This document shows, one piece after another, positions 39,907 to 49,739 of a stretch of 64,000 nucleotides of DNA. The position numbers and the translations under genes are program-made. The stretch's first letter is position 1, and each line of letters opens with the position of its first letter. Origin of the DNA: Planctomyces sp. (GTDB taxonomy: Bacteria; Planctomycetota; Planctomycetia; Planctomycetales; Planctomycetaceae); contig JAHBXW010000004.1 of assembly GCA_019636235.1 (NCBI GenBank), positions 1-64,000 on the forward strand, given 5' to 3'. The notes under the pieces were generated by a model, which was not told where the DNA came from, made no database searches, and saw only the letters and a list, made by a program, of their open reading frames with translations.

Positions 39907-40325
39907 AACGCCATCTCACTTCCGCTGCCCGCAGGCGCAAAGCTGGCCAGGGTTGCGACGCGCCAAGGGCAGCCGCCCGCCACGCGCCTCCTGCCCGCGC
40001 GGTGAAATCTGAAGTCCATCGCCGTGCAATGTCGCCTGACTGACGATCACACCTTCCAGCAATTCCCTCGCATTCCGTCCGTGCTGGTTACACACGCTTC
40101 CCCTTCCCTGCCTTCATCACCGCGACACGCGGCCTTGCCTTCCGTCACGGGTAAAGCCGCCGCCGGTCCGCGCAAGCTGCCAGAGCCGCTTTCCTGAAGG
40201 AAGCCTTCGGCTCTTCGCTTGCCCGGTCGCGTTGCTCGCATTCGCCCCGGACTCACGCGGCTTTCCTTGCCGTGACATCAGGCCGCGATGGTCGCGGCCG
40301 GTAACACAAGGAAAGGGAAATCATC
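39907..40325. other. Intergenic region with hairpins upstream of 40326 gene
   Basis: About 420 bases with no gene I can support. It contains a stem with GAGCCG/CGGCTC arms near 40183-40213 and a nested hairpin at 40261-40315 listed next. The promoter could not be picked out. Confidence 0.4.
40261..40315 (+). promoter_or_regulatory. Nested hairpin covering the ribosome site of the 40326 gene
   Basis: Outer arms CTTTCCTTG (40261-40269) and CAAGGAAAG (40307-40315) are perfectly complementary. Inner arms GGCCGCGA (40281-40288) and TCGCGGCC (40292-40299) surround a 3-base loop. The outer 3' arm contains the AAGGAAAG purine run that serves as the ribosome site for the ATG at 40326. The leader RNA could thus hide that site, suggesting translational control, or the DNA could be an operator. 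Confidence 0.5.
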
Positions 40326-40589
40326 ATGTCCAAACCAGCACACAAAATACGCATCGGAGTCCTCCAGGTCACGATCTGGCGCAACAGCGGTGAAAAAGGC
40401 TCCTGGTACAGCGTCATCCCCACCCGCAGCTACAAGCAGGGCGACGAAACCTGGAAGGAGACCGACTCTCTCGGCTTCGACGACCTGCTCACGATGGGCA
40501 AGCTCTTCGACCTCGCGCACACCTGGATCATGCACCAGCAGCAAGCCGACGCGAAGAGCCGCAAGGAATCCGCTCAGGCAGCCGCCTGA
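40326..40589 (+). CDS. Small conserved plasmid-type protein
   Basis: 87 residues. It reads KIRIGVLQVTIWRNSGEKGSWYSVIPTRSYKQGDETWKE, then a helix LLTMGKLFDLAHTWIMHQQ and an Ala/Lys tail. The pattern is familiar from plasmids and integrative elements but has no assigned role. The strong purine ribosome site is inside a leader hairpin. A perfect terminator follows 10 bases after the stop, so it is expressed alone. Confidence 0.8.
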   Translation: MSKPAHKIRIGVLQVTIWRNSGEKGSWYSVIPTRSYKQGDETWKETDSLGFDDLLTMGKLFDLAHTWIMHQQQADAKSRKESAQAAA

Positions 40590-40598
40590 GTCCGGGTG

Positions 40599-40632
40599 CC
40601 GGCGGCGGAACCCCCCGCCGCCGGTTTTTTTT
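40599..40632 (+). terminator. Rho-independent terminator
   Basis: Perfect 10-bp stem CCGGCGGCGG (40599-40608) and CCGCCGCCGG (40615-40624), with eight T residues directly after. It ends the 40326 gene. Confidence 0.92.
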
Positions 40633-40656
40633 CATCATCAACTTATGGAGATTGTT

Positions 40657-42600
40657 ATGAAGAACACTGACACTACCACGTCCACTACCCAGCTCATCGC
40701 CGTATCGCGGCTTGAGAAATCACCGTTCAATGCCCGCCGCACGGGCGCAGCGGATGCCATCGGCGAGCTGAAGGCGTCCATCCTGGCGCACGGCCTGATG
40801 CAGAACCTCGTCGTTACCGACGAGGGCGACGGCCGCTTCCGGGTCATCGCAGGCGGGCGGCGGCTCGCCGCGATCCACGCGCTCCAGGCCGAAGGCCAAC
40901 TGGCGGACGACTTCGCCGTCCCGTGCCAGGTGGTTACGCAGGAGCACGCAGCGGAACTGAGCCTTGCCGAGAACACGGTGCGGCTGGCCATGCACCCGGC
41001 CGACCAGTTCGAGGCGTTCGCCGAGCTGATCGCCAAGGGCAGCGCGGCGTGCGACGTGGCCCGCCGCTTCGGCGTCGACGAGAGCCTTGTGCTCAAGCGC
41101 ATGAAGCTCGCGCTGGTCGCGCCTGAGCTGCTTCAGCTCTACCGCGACGGCGGCATGACGCTTGAGTGCCTCATGGCGTTTACCGTCACCGACGACCACC
41201 GCCGCCAGCTCAAGGTGTTCAAGTCGCTCCAGAACTGGCAGCAGGAAGATCCCGCCATCATCCGCTCCGCGCTCACCGAGAAGCTGATCGACGCCGACAC
41301 GAAGCTCGCGCGCTTCGTCGGAATCGATGCGTATGCGGCAGCCGGAGGCACCAGCCGGATGGACCTGTTTTCCGACGAGGTCTATCTGGAAAAGCCGGCG
41401 ATCCTCAATCGCCTGGCCAGGCAGAAACTCGACGGCATTCGCCGCGAGCTTGAAGCCGAGGGCTGGAGCTGGATCGAGATCAACCCGGACCGCGACCACA
41501 CGCTGGTAAGCCGCTGCAGCCGGCTTCAGCCGCGCCTGATCGATGCGCCCGGCGAGGTCATCGACGTCAAGGCGCAACTGGACGCCGAGCTGGAGTCGGT
41601 CGAAAAGGCGCTCGACGACACCGAGTCGGATGCATTGATCGAGCAGCAGCAGGCGCTGCGGGAGCGGCTCGACGAGGTTGAGCAAACGCTCGCAGCCCAT
41701 GTCGGCTTTGATCCCGACCACAAGGCGCTGGCCGGCTGCTTCGTTTCCATCGGAAACGACGGTACGCCGTTCATCGACAAGGGGCTGGTCAGGCCCGAAC
41801 ACCGCCGGCAACTGGCCAGGCTGCTCGGCCCGGATGCCGAAGGCGGCACAGGCGCCAGGGTGAAGCCCAAGGGCCAGTTGCCGCAGACGCTGCTGCGCGA
41901 GCTGGCGGCCGACCGCCTGCACGTGGCGCAGGTGGAAATCGCCAGGCATCCGCAGATCGCGTTCGACCTGCTGGTCTTCCACGCGGCGAGCTGCCTGCTT
42001 TCCAAGCACACGCCAGGCGACGGGACCGACGTGCAGTTCCGCCGCCCGCGCCTGAACCGGCAGGGTGACAAGGAACCCACGGCGGCGGCCCTGGCCTTCG
42101 CCGCGATGGCCAAGGAACTGCCGGTTGCGTGGCTCAAGCTGCCATCCGAGGCGGCCCGCTTCGAGGAGTTCCGCCTGCTGCCGGAAGGCGCCAAGCTCGA
42201 CCTGCTGGCCTATTGCGTGGCATCGACCTTGAAGCCGAAGGTCGCCGCTTCCGCCGGCGATGAGATCACCGCCTTCGATACGGCGCTGTCGCTGACGCAA
42301 GCCGATGTCGCCAGCCACTGGCGTCCGACGAGGGACAACTACCTGGGCCGGATCACCCGCGACCAGTTGCTCGCCGTCGGCCGCGATGTATTCGACGAGC
42401 ATTGGTTTACCGGCCACGCCAACCACAAGAAGTCGGCGCTGGCAGAGCAGCTTGCACGGGCCTTCGCCAAGCCGGAGAAGTCGTGCCGATTGCCCGACCA
42501 GGTGGAAAACCTCAAGCGCTGGATTCCGGCGTGCATGAGCTTCGCCCTTCCCGCCAGGGCCAAACCGGCCAAAACGAAGCGCGCCAGGAAGGCGGCCTGA
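40657..42600 (+). CDS. ParB/KorB-like DNA-binding protein, long form
   Basis: 647 residues, about twice a usual ParB. The ParB N-terminal (CTPase/nuclease-like) domain spans about 10-115, with LEKSPFNARR, FRVIAGGRRLAAI and ELSLAENTVR. A KorB/Spo0J-type HTH follows (about 125-190, ACDVARRFGVDESLVLKRMKLA). The C-terminal 400 residues hold a coiled coil (AQLDAELESVEKALDD) and an unrecognised domain, then a basic tail. ATG 40657 has GGAG upstream. It may act as partition protein or global repressor of plasmid genes; the parA gene is far away at 47609. Confidence 0.88.
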   Translation: MKNTDTTTSTTQLIAVSRLEKSPFNARRTGAADAIGELKASILAHGLMQNLVVTDEGDGRFRVIAGGRRLAAIHALQAEGQLADDFAVPCQVVTQEHAAELSLAENTVRLAMHPADQFEAFAELIAKGSAACDVARRFGVDESLVLKRMKLALVAPELLQLYRDGGMTLECLMAFTVTDDHRRQLKVFKSLQNWQQEDPAIIRSALTEKLIDADTKLARFVGIDAYAAAGGTSRMDLFSDEVYLEKPAILNRLARQKLDGIRRELEAEGWSWIEINPDRDHTLVSRCSRLQPRLIDAPGEVIDVKAQLDAELESVEKALDDTESDALIEQQQALRERLDEVEQTLAAHVGFDPDHKALAGCFVSIGNDGTPFIDKGLVRPEHRRQLARLLGPDAEGGTGARVKPKGQLPQTLLRELAADRLHVAQVEIARHPQIAFDLLVFHAASCLLSKHTPGDGTDVQFRRPRLNRQGDKEPTAAALAFAAMAKELPVAWLKLPSEAARFEEFRLLPEGAKLDLLAYCVASTLKPKVAASAGDEITAFDTALSLTQADVASHWRPTRDNYLGRITRDQLLAVGRDVFDEHWFTGHANHKKSALAEQLARAFAKPEKSCRLPDQVENLKRWIPACMSFALPARAKPAKTKRARKAA

Positions 42601-44198: not shown

Positions 44199-44706
44199 CG
44201 CTGTTCATTGCCCCTTGCTGAACTTCCCCTGCCACTGTTTTCCCAGGTGGGCACATTGTCAACGTGAAACACCAGGCCGATCCCCTCACCTCTTTACGCA
44301 TCACGAACCATTGCATCATGCGGGCACATCGCCTGCGGCGACCGCGTGCTTACGGGCTGCGCTTGCGCTGCGGTCCTCTTCGAGTGACGGCTATCGCCCC
44401 CTTTCGCCCGCTTGTGCGCGGGACGTTCGTCCCGAATCGACGCCTGCGGCGCGGACGCTTTCTTTCGGGTAAGGGGGCACATCCCCCGTGCCGTCAAGGA
44501 TCGGAGCCACGCGGCCTTCGCGGCTTCCTCCCCGATCTTCCGCGCTCCGCTGCGCTCGCTTGTGCAGACCGGGTGCCCCTCCGCTGCGGCCGTCCTTGAC
44601 TGCCCTCCCCCTGGGCGTTTCGGGCTTTCGCCCCCCTGCCGCCGGAAAACGCGAGGCGCGTTTCGCGTCAGGGGACATTTCCAAATCCAAACCGGAGGAA
44701 CTTGCA
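44199..44706. other. GC-rich region without a supported gene
   Basis: About 510 bases before ardC. Overlapping open frames on both strands are of the Arg/Pro/Ala-rich type produced by GC bias. Several small hairpins are visible: CCCGCTTGTGCGCGGG, GGGACGTTCGTCCC and GGGGGCACATCCCCC. A motif like GGG(G)-CACAT recurs three times (near 44330, 44476 and, degenerate, 44673). The ribosome site GGAGGA lies before the ATG at 44707. Confidence 0.45.
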
Positions 44707-45609
44707 ATGGCGACTGCCACCACCACCCGCGTTGACATCTACACCCGCGTTACGTCGCACATCGTGGCCGAGCTTGAGCGCGGCGTGCGGCCTTGGCTCA
44801 AGCCGTGGAACGCGGAAAACGCCGCCGGGCGCATCACGCGGCCCCTGCGGCACAACGGCCAGCCCTACCAGGGCATCAATATCCTGATGCTGTGGGCGTC
44901 CGCCGAGCTGCAAGGCTACGCCTGCCCGTTCTGGCTTACCTTCCAGCAGGCCAAGGAGCTGGGCGGATTCGTCAAGAAAGGCGAGCACGGATCGCCCGTC
45001 GTTTACGCCAGCACGTTCAAGAAGAAGGAGCAGACCGACGACGGCCAGGAGACCGAGGCGGAAATCCCGTTCCTCAAGGAATACACGGTGTTCAACGCCG
45101 AGCAGTGCGAGGGACTGCCCAAGCACTTTTACGCACTGGCCGAGCCGCCGAAGGAGAAGATCGAACGCATCACCCACGCCGAGGCGTTTTTCGCCAACAC
45201 CAAGGCCGACATCCGCACCGGAGGCAACCGGGCGTACTACGCCATCGGCGACGACTACGTGCAGATGCCCCCGTTCGAGACGTTCCGCGACTCGGAATCG
45301 CACGCGGCGACGCTGGCCCATGAGCTGACGCACTGGACGCGGCACGAAAGCCGGCTTAACCGCGACTTCGGACGCAGGAAGTGGGGCGACGAAGGCTATG
45401 CGATGGAAGAGCTGGTCGCCGAGCTTGGCAGCGCGTTTCTCTGTGCCGATTTGCAGATCACGCCGGAAGTGCGAAGCGACCACGCGAGCTACATCGATTC
45501 GTGGCTTGCCGTCATGAAGGCCGACAAGCGGGCGGTTTTCTCCGCCGCATCGCACGCGAGCAAGGCAGTTGAATTCCTCCACGGAACGCAGCCGCAGCCC
45601 GCCGCATAA
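44707..45609 (+). CDS. ArdC-type antirestriction protein
   Basis: 300 residues. The N-terminal ssDNA-binding domain has VRPWLKPWN, RPLRHNGQPYQGINILMLW and ELGGFVKKGEHG. The C-terminal zincin-like metallopeptidase has AATLAHELTHWTRHESR (HExxH variant HELTH near residue 205) and AMEELVAELGSAFLC. ArdC proteins protect incoming plasmid DNA from restriction of the new host. The gene fits a mobilisable plasmid. Strong GGAGGA site and terminator. Confidence 0.92.
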   Translation: MATATTTRVDIYTRVTSHIVAELERGVRPWLKPWNAENAAGRITRPLRHNGQPYQGINILMLWASAELQGYACPFWLTFQQAKELGGFVKKGEHGSPVVYASTFKKKEQTDDGQETEAEIPFLKEYTVFNAEQCEGLPKHFYALAEPPKEKIERITHAEAFFANTKADIRTGGNRAYYAIGDDYVQMPPFETFRDSESHAATLAHELTHWTRHESRLNRDFGRRKWGDEGYAMEELVAELGSAFLCADLQITPEVRSDHASYIDSWLAVMKADKRAVFSAASHASKAVEFLHGTQPQPAA

Positions 45610-46145: not shown

Positions 46146-46484
46146 CACACGCGCGCCGCCGCCCTCGCCGGGCGGCGGTTTGCTTTGGCGAAGGCATCCA
46201 TGCCCAAGTTGCGCCCGCTTCCGTTCGGGCGCCAGAATGAAACGCCGCGATGGAGAAAAACGCGGCGAAGAACCGGAAGCCGGAAGAAGAATCCGAACCA
46301 GAATCCGAATCCAAAACCGAAGCAGAGAACGAAGCAAAGAGTGGACAGGCATCTTCCCTATGCGTCGCATAGGAGGAATGGAACCGTTCCAGCGGGCCGA
46401 TCAGAAAGACAACTGACTGCCGCCGTCCCCGCGCGGGACGCGCTGCCTCCGGCCGGCTTCGATTCATTTCGGATTTCGTTCTGG
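46146..46484. other. Intergenic stretch with weak small open frames
   Basis: About 340 bases without a gene I would call. A 40-codon frame at 46250-46372 encodes a Glu/Lys/Ser-rich peptide (MEKNAAKNRKPEEES) and overlaps an Arg-rich frame in another phase. Neither has a good ribosome site. The low-complexity AACCGGAAGC/GAATCCGAA composition explains both. Confidence 0.35.
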
Positions 46485-46810: not shown

Positions 46811-47131
46811 ATGAGAACGATTGGTGGAATCTGCATCGTCGTCGCGGCGATCCTGGCATTCGCCGGATACAACCACAACAACAACGCCAACAATTTGCAG
46901 GCGCAGATCGCCCAGCAATCCGGCCTGACCAAGTTCATCGGCGAAGGATTGCAGCTCAACAATATCGACCGGGCGCGCATCCAGGGCATGCGCGATACGT
47001 CGAAGAAGTTCTTCACCGGCGCGGCCCTCTTCGGCCTGGTCGGGCTGGCGCTTGGCGGCCTGGGCGGTTCGAGCGAAACGGTCACCCGCACCATCACCTA
47101 CCGGACCAGCGACCCGGATGGCTCGCCTTGA
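46811..47131 (+). CDS. Small membrane protein
   Basis: 106 residues. There are two hydrophobic segments: GGICIVVAAILAFAGY (5-20) and FTGAALFGLVGLALGGLGG (about 69-87). Between them lies a polar Asn/Gln-rich part. It is probably an inner-membrane protein with two helices; no family was recognised. The ATG at 46811 is chosen; the open frame back to 46604 crosses the candidate RNA and is not believed. Its end abuts the word-repeat tract. Confidence 0.65.
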   Translation: MRTIGGICIVVAAILAFAGYNHNNNANNLQAQIAQQSGLTKFIGEGLQLNNIDRARIQGMRDTSKKFFTGAALFGLVGLALGGLGGSSETVTRTITYRTSDPDGSP

Positions 47132-47608
47132 AATTCAGACGCTTGACAAGAAAGCCAACCGGCAAGCAGGCTGGCTTGCTGACATGCTTGCATGCCAGCC
47201 TGCACGCTTGGCGTACGGCTTGCCGGAAAGCCTGCAAGCCGTATTGCTTACATGCTGACTTGCTGTCCGGCTTTCTTGCTGTCTTGCCGACATGCAAGTG
47301 TGCTTACATGCTTCCATGAAGGATTGCATGCCAGCAGGCAGGTATGCTTGCTGTATTACATGCTGGCATGTTGGCACGTTGTCGTGCCGTCATGTTTTCA
47401 TGCTGACATGCCGTACATGCTGCAAGCTTTCTTACAAGCAAGCTGGCAAGCCGTCATGCTGGCCTGTCATAAGACTGGCCAGCAGGCTGTGCAGCCAGCA
47501 ATATTGCAAGCTGGCAGGCTGGCTAGCTGACATGCTCGCATGCCATACGGCCAGCCAGACGTACATATTGCTTGCCAGCATGACGGCAGGTGTTGTAACG
47601 TCCGGTAC
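47132..47608. repeat. Dense short-word repeat tract, candidate plasmid centromere
   Basis: About 475 bases built mostly from a few short words: CATGC (about a dozen copies), CTTGC/GCAAG, CTGGC/GCCAG and CTGAC, at roughly helical spacing and in both orientations. The composition is unlike anything else in the window and much lower in G+C than the backbone. Stops are rare, so many meaningless frames rich in Met, Ala, Cys, His and Leu appear. It ends at the parA start codon. In type Ib partition systems the centromere lies just upstream of parA, so a parS role is likely. Confidence 0.6.
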
Positions 47609-48283
47609 ATGATTATCGTGATCGCAAACTCCAAGGGAGGCGTCGGTAAATCGACGATTGCCGTACACCTGGCCGCCTGGCTGCATGAACAGGGCCATTC
47701 CGTCATTCTTGCTGACTGCGATACGCAGCACTCTTCCTCCGAATGGGCCAGTGAGGCCGTACCCAGAGTAAAGACCGTCCGGCTGGGCAATCCGGACGCC
47801 ATTCTCGACCAGCTTCCCGCGCTGGCAGAGCAGGCGGATTTCATCATCGCCGACGGTCCGGGGAGCAACACCGAGACCAGCCGCGCCCTCCTGCTGCGGG
47901 CTAATCGCGCCATCGTCCCGTGCAAGGCGAGCATGCTTGAGGTCCGCGCGCTGGCGCAGGCCACCAATGTCCTGCGGCAGGCCCAAGGCATCCGCTCCGG
48001 CATGCCGGAGGCGGTGATCGTGCTGAGCATGGTGGGCAAGACTTACCGGCTCACCCAGGACATGAAGGACGCCGCGGCGGCCTTGGAACTTCCCGTAGCC
48101 AAGACGGCACTTACGCTCAAACAGGTTTACGCCGACGCGCCGGGGCAGGGCGCCGTCGTGTGGCAACTAGGGTCGCGCGGCAAGGAAGCCGCCGCCGAGA
48201 TTCAATCTCTGTTCCGCGAAATCCTGCCCGAGGCGCGTAACATCAAGGCACCGCGCAAACAACGAAGCATGGAGACGGTATGA
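47609..48283 (+). CDS. parA: Plasmid ParA partition ATPase
   Basis: 224 residues, a small ParA without N-terminal HTH. Deviant Walker A ANSKGGVGKSTIAVHLAAW starts at residue 7, followed by VILADCDTQHSSSEW and FIIADGPGSNTET. It drives plasmid segregation by ATP-dependent patterning on the nucleoid. The next gene begins inside its stop codon (ATGA overlap), giving a parA-parB operon. The ribosome site is weak. Confidence 0.92.
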   Translation: MIIVIANSKGGVGKSTIAVHLAAWLHEQGHSVILADCDTQHSSSEWASEAVPRVKTVRLGNPDAILDQLPALAEQADFIIADGPGSNTETSRALLLRANRAIVPCKASMLEVRALAQATNVLRQAQGIRSGMPEAVIVLSMVGKTYRLTQDMKDAAAALELPVAKTALTLKQVYADAPGQGAVVWQLGSRGKEAAAEIQSLFREILPEARNIKAPRKQRSMETV

Positions 48284-48621
48284 CCAAGACCGATACGACG
48301 ACGAAAGAACGCCGGCCGCTGGTGGCGGGCATCACCGATACGTTTACGGCCGATCCGGTACTTGAGAAACAATTCGTCTACGCCGAAAAACCAAAGCCCG
48401 CTGAACCGAAGACGCCAGAGGGCGACGGAGGGAAGGCGCAGGCAGGCAATGCCGTGGTAAGCCGCATGCCGCTGACCACGCGCATCCGCACCGACTTCGG
48501 CACGGCGCTCAAGCGCGCCTCGCTGGAGCGGCAGCTCGCCGGCGTCACGCCCAACACGCTGCAGGACATATTGGAAGAAGCCGTAGAGCCGTGGCTGCGC
48601 AACAACGGCTACCTGAAATAA
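48280..48621 (+). CDS. Small ParB-like partition protein
   Basis: 113 residues. The N-terminal part is polar (MTKTDTTTKERRPLVAG). The C-terminal 50 residues read PLTTRIRTDFGTALKRASLERQL and TLQDILEEAVEPWLRNNGY, which looks like a ribbon-helix-helix DNA-binding domain. Position after parA with a 4-base overlap and size match type Ib ParB proteins. It probably binds the repeat tract upstream of parA and may autoregulate the operon. Confidence 0.8.
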   Translation: MTKTDTTTKERRPLVAGITDTFTADPVLEKQFVYAEKPKPAEPKTPEGDGGKAQAGNAVVSRMPLTTRIRTDFGTALKRASLERQLAGVTPNTLQDILEEAVEPWLRNNGYLK

Positions 48622-48682: not shown

Positions 48683-48711
48683 TTGAAACACCGCCCATCC
48701 CGCGCTAGTGT
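48683..48711 (+). promoter_or_regulatory. Candidate promoter of the replication initiator gene
   Basis: TTGAAA (48683-48688), a 17-base spacer, TAGTGT (48706-48711). It lies 54 bases before the ATG of the rep gene and is the best -35/-10 match in the gap after the partition operon. Confidence 0.45.
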
Positions 48712-48764
48712 CGCAAGGTAACTCGCCGCCACGAGGGCGATGCGATGCAACCGGGATAGAGTGC

Positions 48765-49739
48765 ATGTCGAAGCGGCTCCCGCCGAGGGGCGATCACCAG
48801 GCCGACCTGTTCGCCGCCAACTTCGCGGACATACCGATACGCGACCAGCGCGACACGATGGAGCGGCCGTTCTTCAGCCTGGCCAAGAAACCGCGCTTCA
48901 CCCCCATCGAATACCATGTCGGCGACGTGTGGGTCGAAGTCAGCGCCAATCCGAAATTCGGCCTGGCGACGATCTGGGACGCCGACATCCTGATCTGGGC
49001 ATCGACGCAGATCACCGAGGCGCTCGACCGCGGCCAGACGCCGAGCCGCGTCGTCCGCTTCCATCCGCACAATCTCCTGAAATCCATTCGCCGCGCCACC
49101 GGCGGCGAGCATTACCTGCGGCTGCGCGCCGCGCTGGACCGGCTGACGCACACGGCGGTCCGTACCAACATCCGCGCCGAGGGCAAGAAGAAGGCGGCCA
49201 GCTTCCACTGGCTGGAAAGCTGGACCGAGGTGACCGACGAGCACACGGGCGAAACCACCGGCATGACCATGACGCTGCCGGACTGGCTGTTCGATGGCAT
49301 CCTGATGAAGGGCGGCGTGCTCACCATCCACGAGGATTACTTCCTGCTGACCGGCGGCATCGAGCGCTGGCTGTACCGCGTGGCCCGCAAGCATGCCGGC
49401 CACCAGGAGATGGGCTGGCAGTTCACCATGCGCCAGCTCTACGAGAAATCCGGCTCGACCTCCCGCTTCTCCGACTTCGCCATCGACGTGCGCAAGGTGA
49501 TCGAAGCCGATTCGCTGCCCGAGTACACGGCCATGCTCCACAAGAACGAGGAGCAGGAGGAGATCGTCCACTTCCTGAAACGCGACCAGCTCAGCATCAC
49601 CGATCCCAGGTTCGAGACGCCCCGTAACCCGCGCCGGCGCGTCGGCCGCGGCATCACCTCGAAATCGGTGAAATTCAACGACGTAGAGAAGGGGGAGCAC
49701 GGCCTATTACCCGCAACCGAGACCGCCGCCGGTGAGTAG
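48765..49739 (+). CDS. Replication initiator protein A (RPA family)
   Basis: 324 residues. The opening ERPFFSLAKKPRFTPIEYHVGDVWVEVSANPKFGLATIWDADILIWA is typical of the RPA family of plasmid initiators. The winged-helix parts include YLRLRAALDRLTHTAV and LYEKSGSTSRFSDFA. It binds iterons to start replication. The first iteron lies inside its 3' end (49700-49715). The start MSKRLPPRG at 48765 is preferred over 48708. The family is found on broad-host-range proteobacterial plasmids. Confidence 0.92.
   Translation: MSKRLPPRGDHQADLFAANFADIPIRDQRDTMERPFFSLAKKPRFTPIEYHVGDVWVEVSANPKFGLATIWDADILIWASTQITEALDRGQTPSRVVRFHPHNLLKSIRRATGGEHYLRLRAALDRLTHTAVRTNIRAEGKKKAASFHWLESWTEVTDEHTGETTGMTMTLPDWLFDGILMKGGVLTIHEDYFLLTGGIERWLYRVARKHAGHQEMGWQFTMRQLYEKSGSTSRFSDFAIDVRKVIEADSLPEYTAMLHKNEEQEEIVHFLKRDQLSITDPRFETPRNPRRRVGRGITSKSVKFNDVEKGEHGLLPATETAAGE

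Follow-up and report, generated by a model that had tools for sequence, protein, structure and literature searches.

The 64,000-nucleotide window analyzed here (positions 1 to 64,000 of contig JAHBXW010000004.1 of Planctomyces sp.) contains an array of 4-bp units, a tetrad array, at 47127..47590, immediately upstream of parA. This tract is very probably the cis-acting centromere and operator of a type Ib-like ParAB module, in which boxes for an RHH-like ParB lie 8 bp apart and shifts of 4 bp are possible. The array, which is assigned to neither strand, was delimited by autocorrelation, a period scan, HMM boundaries and shuffles.

The tetrad array and the parAB operon

A preliminary description of this DNA had reported about 480 bp of low-complexity, non-coding sequence ending at parA (47609). 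This is confirmed; the tract scored 0.316 in the period scan against a window mean of 0.000 (sd 0.028), and nothing else in the window was alike. Base identity within the tract was 0.40-0.49 at lags 4, 8, 12 and so on to 56, and 0.10-0.26 at the other lags. The period-4 score of the whole tract gave z = 31 against 500 dinucleotide-preserving shuffles, and neither autocorrelation nor the period scan of the tract showed an excess at period 7. An HMM with provision for register jumps, trained on 65 distinct parA upstream regions, read the window tract as 464 bp, or 116 units of 4 bp, in a single register without a jump. The earlier statement that the repeat has no fixed unit was wrong, since the lag identities, the shuffle score and the HMM all fix the unit length at 4 bp.

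The unit consensus is C-H-D-G. G is almost absent at unit positions 1-2 and C at positions 3-4, giving the form C(A)-notG-notC-G(T), which is self-complementary on average. This base rule (no G at 1-2, no C at 3-4) was violated at 10 of the 464 positions. Matches to the rule in the 5.6-Mb genome numbered 102 and all fell inside the tract, which is therefore unique in its genome. The 5-mer words described previously are real, but they are not unphased 5-mers: CATGC, CTTGC and CTGGC each consist of one unit (CATG, CTTG or CTGG) and the first base, C, of the unit after it. Their presence in both orientations, also noted before, holds and is accounted for by the average self-complementarity of the unit. 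A k-mer and periodicity check found period 4, with an 8-bp component, instead of unphased 5-mers. Across 61 tracts, about half of the units fit CNNG, and their two middle bases are of many kinds. The tract does not consist of head-to-tail copies of a single unit, as a microsatellite would, and Tandem Repeats Finder reported only one 35-bp stretch in it.

The parA gene (47609..48283, + strand) encodes a 224-aa Walker ATPase without an N-terminal DNA-binding domain (Pfam AAA_31, 6.1e-16; NCBIfam ParA_partition, 4.8e-46, below the cut-off of that model). It has a KGGVGKS motif at residue 9 and is a small ParA-type Walker ATPase, as in type Ib systems. The end of parA is overlapped by parB (48280..48621, + strand), whose 113-aa product was characterized by alignment, AlphaFold2, Foldseek and Pfam and has an RHH-like C-terminal domain. 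In an alignment of 70 members, the N-tail, which was modeled with low confidence, carries an (E/D)RR.L motif, and Arg11, Leu14 and Phe32 are invariant. A conserved strand-like segment, (V/L/I)(S/T)TR(I/V)R, precedes two helices (71-87 and 94-108) with a pLDDT of 90 or more in AlphaFold2; this was a monomer prediction, so the ribbon is not formed. The best Foldseek match was MetJ bound to DNA (probability 0.84, E 1.2), and the Pfam RHH model was matched weakly by 33 of the 70 members. The window ParB itself had no curated Pfam match, the ParB profile gave chance matches only against the sequences of solved structures, and no family-level sequence match to ParG was found. Gene order, protein size, Arg11 in the tail and the strand-helix-helix C-terminus agree with the small RHH ParB of type Ib systems, whereas the fold and family scores are weak. 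These results support, without proving, an RHH fold for ParB.

A parA promoter is predicted from hexamer conservation at 47572..47599 (+ strand), with a -35 TTGCCA (47572-47577) within the last units of the array, a 16-bp spacer and a -10-like TGTAAC (47594-47599) about 10 bp ahead of the start codon. The hexamer TTG[CT][CA][AT] begins 35-38 bp ahead of the start codon at 55 of the 65 loci. Near the -35 position, 47 loci have exact TTGCCA, versus 4 in an equal window inside the array, and the -10-like element of the relatives is TA-rich and lies about 16 bp beyond the hexamer. Together, the two elements look like a parA promoter in the array end, and it is from this pattern that we infer its activity. 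In known type Ib systems, the centromere precedes the operon and overlaps the operon promoter (PMC5016525, PMC9499535). By sequence, the tract has the same arrangement, with direct and inverted short repeats upstream of parAB that overlap the predicted promoter.

Box geometry and a model of ParB binding

Within the arrays, the same tetramer recurred at 1.5-1.8 times the expected frequency at unit distances 2, 4 and 6, with no enrichment at 1, 3 and 5. Reverse-complement tetramers were found at 1.3-1.4 times expectation at distances 2, 4 and 6 and were depleted to 0.30 times at distance 1. The 8-bp excess was significant over 47 tracts (p = 9e-7), and over the 65 tetrad loci the identity was 0.382 at lags 4, 12, 20 and 28 and 0.403 at lags 8, 16, 24 and 32, on a background of 0.219. 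We rejected the arrangement in which two adjacent units form the half-sites of one palindromic 8-bp site, in the style of a met box, because of the 0.30-fold frequency of reverse complements at distance 1.

In the window tract, strong units (C..G) stand at every second unit at 47247..47310, in one 8-bp phase (strong fraction 0.125 at even versus 0.875 at odd units). At 47343..47430 they stand in the opposite phase, shifted by 4 bp (0.875 at even versus 0.0 at odd units, for the 16 units from 47367); neither segment is assigned to a strand. Because the strong phase flips along the array, the overall even/odd asymmetry of the window tract is not significant. Strong CNNG units keep one parity throughout in some arrays (for example, loci L036, L041, L072, L087 and L090), and C1 and G4 are retained by units of both parities in most arrays. 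We read this geometry as boxes that are spaced 8 bp apart, may face either way and have their dyad in the middle of a unit; any unit would be usable, and the pitch may slip by 4 bp.

In known type Ib systems, ParB supplies ParA with an arginine finger from its flexible N-terminus, and its RHH domain recognizes repeats equally well in direct and inverted orientation (PMC5016525, PMC7308502). In the proposed mechanism, ParB dimers would insert their beta-ribbon at CNNG boxes, which are self-complementary around a dyad in the middle of the unit, and would line up along the array mainly at the 8-bp pitch and in either orientation. Since every 4-bp unit obeys the base rule, a dimer could bind one unit over, and the coat would then change phase by 4 bp. 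ParA would carry the coated array through ATP-driven cycles, which are probably triggered by the Arg-containing N-tail of ParB. Because the predicted parA promoter overlaps the final units, parAB would be repressed by this coat as well, and ParB autorepression is also what the analogy with pSM19035 suggests (PMC9499535).

A denser coat, with ParB dimers every 4 bp forming two interleaved spirals and both 8-bp phases occupied at once, seems to us rather unlikely. A simple B-DNA geometry with a protein-centre radius of 18 A would allow it, as the centre-to-centre distance is 36.2 A at 4 bp and 36.6 A at 8 bp. If it were true, the coat would have roughly double the density of any known RHH partition complex, with up to 116 dimers per 464 bp, and a non-spreading ParB could build a large partition complex. 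RHH-type ParB cannot spread on DNA, and how the few dimers that it loads can drive diffusion-ratchet segregation has been stated to be unclear (PMC9499535). This phylum-wide system, with 23-116 contiguous units in 4-bp steps and lengths that vary between relatives, is a natural experiment on that loading question.

Conservation of the array and its exchange with parAB

Among 170 genomes from the same family, 20 contain ParB relatives, and the GTDB species set yielded 77 loci. Judged by record title, nearly all of the latter belong to Planctomycetota (among others, Gemmataceae, Isosphaeraceae, Pirellulaceae and Phycisphaerae); a few records of that set carry other phylum names and are possibly mis-binned. 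The ParB search of PLSDB and the plasmid DNA search gave no match, and no ParB relative was found in viral contigs. The nearest plasmid relatives of ParA (43-45% identity), on Allocoleopsis and Nostoc plasmids (L113, L114), have short repeats such as TGCAGTAA just before parA; these show a weak 4/8-bp signal and are possible relatives of the long arrays. The Gemmataceae MAG palsa_1347 has at least seven parB loci of this type (L036, L041, L062, L064, L071, L073, L098), which raises the question of how incompatibility is avoided.

Of the 65 distinct parA-parB loci, 60 have an HMM-called array piece of at least 90 bp immediately ahead of parA; such counts are not independent, since the loci are related by descent. 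The remaining five had shorter pieces only, and ParB is divergent in most of them. Array pieces reach up to 464 bp, and two register jumps only were called in the 65 regions (a rate of about 1e-4 per bp). Over 849 kb of sequence from these loci, the only call of at least 60 bp that did not lie upstream of parA was one piece in L038, beside a left-border hairpin, which is read as an array split by insertion. An apparent insertion sequence also lies between the centromere array and parA at L057:4350-5290. The preliminary description had said that a lack of conservation of the words with the same parAB would speak against a centromere; this check did not refute the proposal, as the 4-bp array is kept at these 60 loci and is not seen elsewhere in the 849 kb. 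For the 170 family genomes, the pattern HHDD was too permissive, as it also matched AT-rich DNA and microsatellites, and (CHDG)x10 was used instead. Its matches fell in par loci or in microsatellites and other simple repeats, the rest being isolated stretches some 45 bp long. The array offers a simple sequence signature by which to locate partition loci in Planctomycetota; in this phylum, a published plasmid study assumed that ParA and ParB are encoded on different plasmids (PMC5352709).

A left-border element, supported by stem covariation, lies at 46346..46390 (+ strand) and consists of CAGGCATCTTC, the hairpin CCTATGC-gtc-GCATAGG and a second inverted repeat, GGAACCGTTCC. To the left of most arrays, the general form is CAGRCRTCTYCC, a hairpin (7-bp stem, 3-nt loop) and a further inverted repeat, in that order. 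The element abuts the array in most relatives, and in the window 736 bp separate the two; a 106-aa ORF in this interval (46811-47131) matched nothing in Pfam and has no counterpart in the related loci. The hairpin stem covaries, with 99.4% of cells paired and 19 double changes versus 4.7 in shuffles, in 25 distinct rows hand-picked for similar length, which makes the result supportive and not a full test. Rfam gave no match on six loci. A single hairpin-pattern match in viral contigs (L120) lies in GC-rich sequence that seems to be coding and was discounted as a chance match. The two-hairpin form was also seen at L123, L136, L140, L142 and L145-L149, and the element was found as well without a parA match within up to 1.5 kb examined on either side. 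The element may serve in nicking, recombination or replication.

The left-border element is likewise found in front of an unrelated parA (31-32% identical) with a ParG-like RHH parB. This second planctomycete cassette, with an 8-bp centromere-like array, was observed at L124, L125, L137, L144 and L166-L177 and can take the place of the 4-bp cassette next to this border element. In L124 and L137, the RPA-family replication protein is 91% identical over the part seen and the left-border element is kept, while parAB is different and the 4-bp array is absent. Upstream of 12 unrelated-type parA genes, period 8 was the best among periods 4-11 in most cases, strongly so in L166, L170, L173 and L176, and no excess was found at lags 4, 12, 20 and 28. 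Thus, the period of the array differs with ParB, whereas the border is retained, as is the rep gene in L124 and L137. This is the strongest evidence that we obtained, and it indicates that centromere spacing (4, 7 or 8 bp) is a swappable trait that travels with ParB.

The array might be an operator only, from which ParB regulates parAB while the centromere lies elsewhere, for example, in the left-border hairpin. The predicted promoter inside the array end and the conserved, structured border element are consistent with this. However, up to 116 units are far beyond the needs of repression, one array serves as both centromere and operator for known RHH ParBs (PMC9499535), and the border element is common to unrelated parAB types and present without parA nearby. 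We consider this explanation very improbable, slightly less so than the two that follow.

A replication initiator of the RPA family (48708..49739, + strand; PF10134, 7.9e-82) is encoded 86 bp past parB and does not belong to the centromere; origins are often near par loci. The array could thus be an origin or iteron array bound by this initiator, in line with the replication-related role that had been suggested as an alternative. Such a role is disfavored and hardly credible, since the array accompanies parAB (ParA at 74 and ParB at 76 of 76 loci) and not RPA, which is present at 19 of the 76; conservation of the array with the initiator was not seen. Moreover, the 4-bp array is missing where the closely similar RPA adjoins a different parAB, and a repeat of iteron length (17-22 bp) is absent from the tract by Tandem Repeats Finder. 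Upstream of the par-rep module, the window also encodes a ParB_N-domain protein (770 aa; 40288-42600) and an ArdC-like antirestriction protein (44488-45609), which are typical of a plasmid or an integrated mobile element.

Among close relatives, substitutions per site at unit positions 1-4 were 0.145, 0.257, 0.233 and 0.124, so that C1 and G4 are slowest. All 19 internal gaps in eight well-aligned close pairs were multiples of 4; these pairs are not phylogenetically independent and periodic sequence biases an aligner toward such gaps, but the HMM independently shows that the register survives. Pairs with lower tract identity, where other gap lengths occur too, were excluded. The pair L047/L052 was left out because its gaps were not multiples of 4, probably since different pieces of segmented arrays were compared. 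In the Isosphaeraceae-like L042, L045, L047 and L052, the array is in 4-6 pieces (about 65-260 bp) over about 700-850 bp, spaced roughly 20-120 bp apart. The array sequence changes while its register stays. Slippage may be the source of the array indels, and these steps of 4, with the true (CCTG)n and (CTGG)n microsatellites of related genomes, would fit a decayed, functionless tetranucleotide microsatellite kept by slippage. This explanation is just as hard to credit as the replication origin, as the units are mixed and not one tetramer repeated, positions 1 and 4 are more conserved than 2 and 3, the place before parA is fixed over phylum-wide divergence, and no equally strong array was found away from parAB in the family genomes. 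A recombination-prone role, also suggested earlier, is without support apart from the indels in steps of 4.

Comparison with known partition systems

Applied to the DNA just ahead of the ParA gene at known RHH partition loci, the same measure recovered period 7 for a pSM19035-type parS upstream of delta and period 8 for a TP228-type parH upstream of parF (L119). L119 replaced a first TP228-type control, L117, which has unrelated DNA upstream of its short parA gene. These controls, the distribution over the par loci and the exchange of array type with parAB support the original proposal of an unusually long type Ib centromere for an RHH-like ParB.

As in the ParF-ParG-parH system of TP228, the array lies directly upstream of the ParA gene, with tetramer boxes in direct and inverted orientation, the 8-bp pitch of the TP228-type plasmid and a small RHH ParB with an Arg-bearing flexible tail, fold and tail being predicted here (PMC7308502, PMC5016525). 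Unlike the tetramer boxes of parH, which are separated by AT-rich spacers at mainly 8-bp periodicity, every 4 bp here is box-like, C and G are favored, and the array is GC-richer and up to 464 bp long. A parH-type pattern of 8-bp boxes with AT-rich, non-box spacers was not found, as lags 4, 12, 20 and 28 are raised too.

The array resembles the delta-omega-parS system of pSM19035 in its contiguous short repeats without spacers, in both orientations, which overlap the parA promoter (predicted here) and go with an RHH ParB, or here an RHH-like one (PMC9499535). In contrast, parS consists of near-exact 7-bp repeats, 7-10 per site, whereas degenerate 4-bp units, 23-116 per array, are found here, and contiguous 7-bp repeats are not.

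MetJ, an RHH protein, binds abutting 8-bp met-box sites. MetJ on tandem met boxes is comparable as the best fold match to ParB; however, it is a metabolic repressor with few boxes, and its box is an 8-bp palindrome, whereas two-unit 8-bp palindromes are depleted here. To our knowledge, the 4-bp phase is without precedent among characterized RHH centromeres, and a literature search on 4-bp periodicity found nothing relevant.

Judged by gene order, ParA type and centromere position, the module belongs to type Ib. These results suggest that the array is a new variant of the type Ib centromere, which shares the position and logic of parH and parS but has a 4-bp register and is degenerate, GC-richer and much longer.
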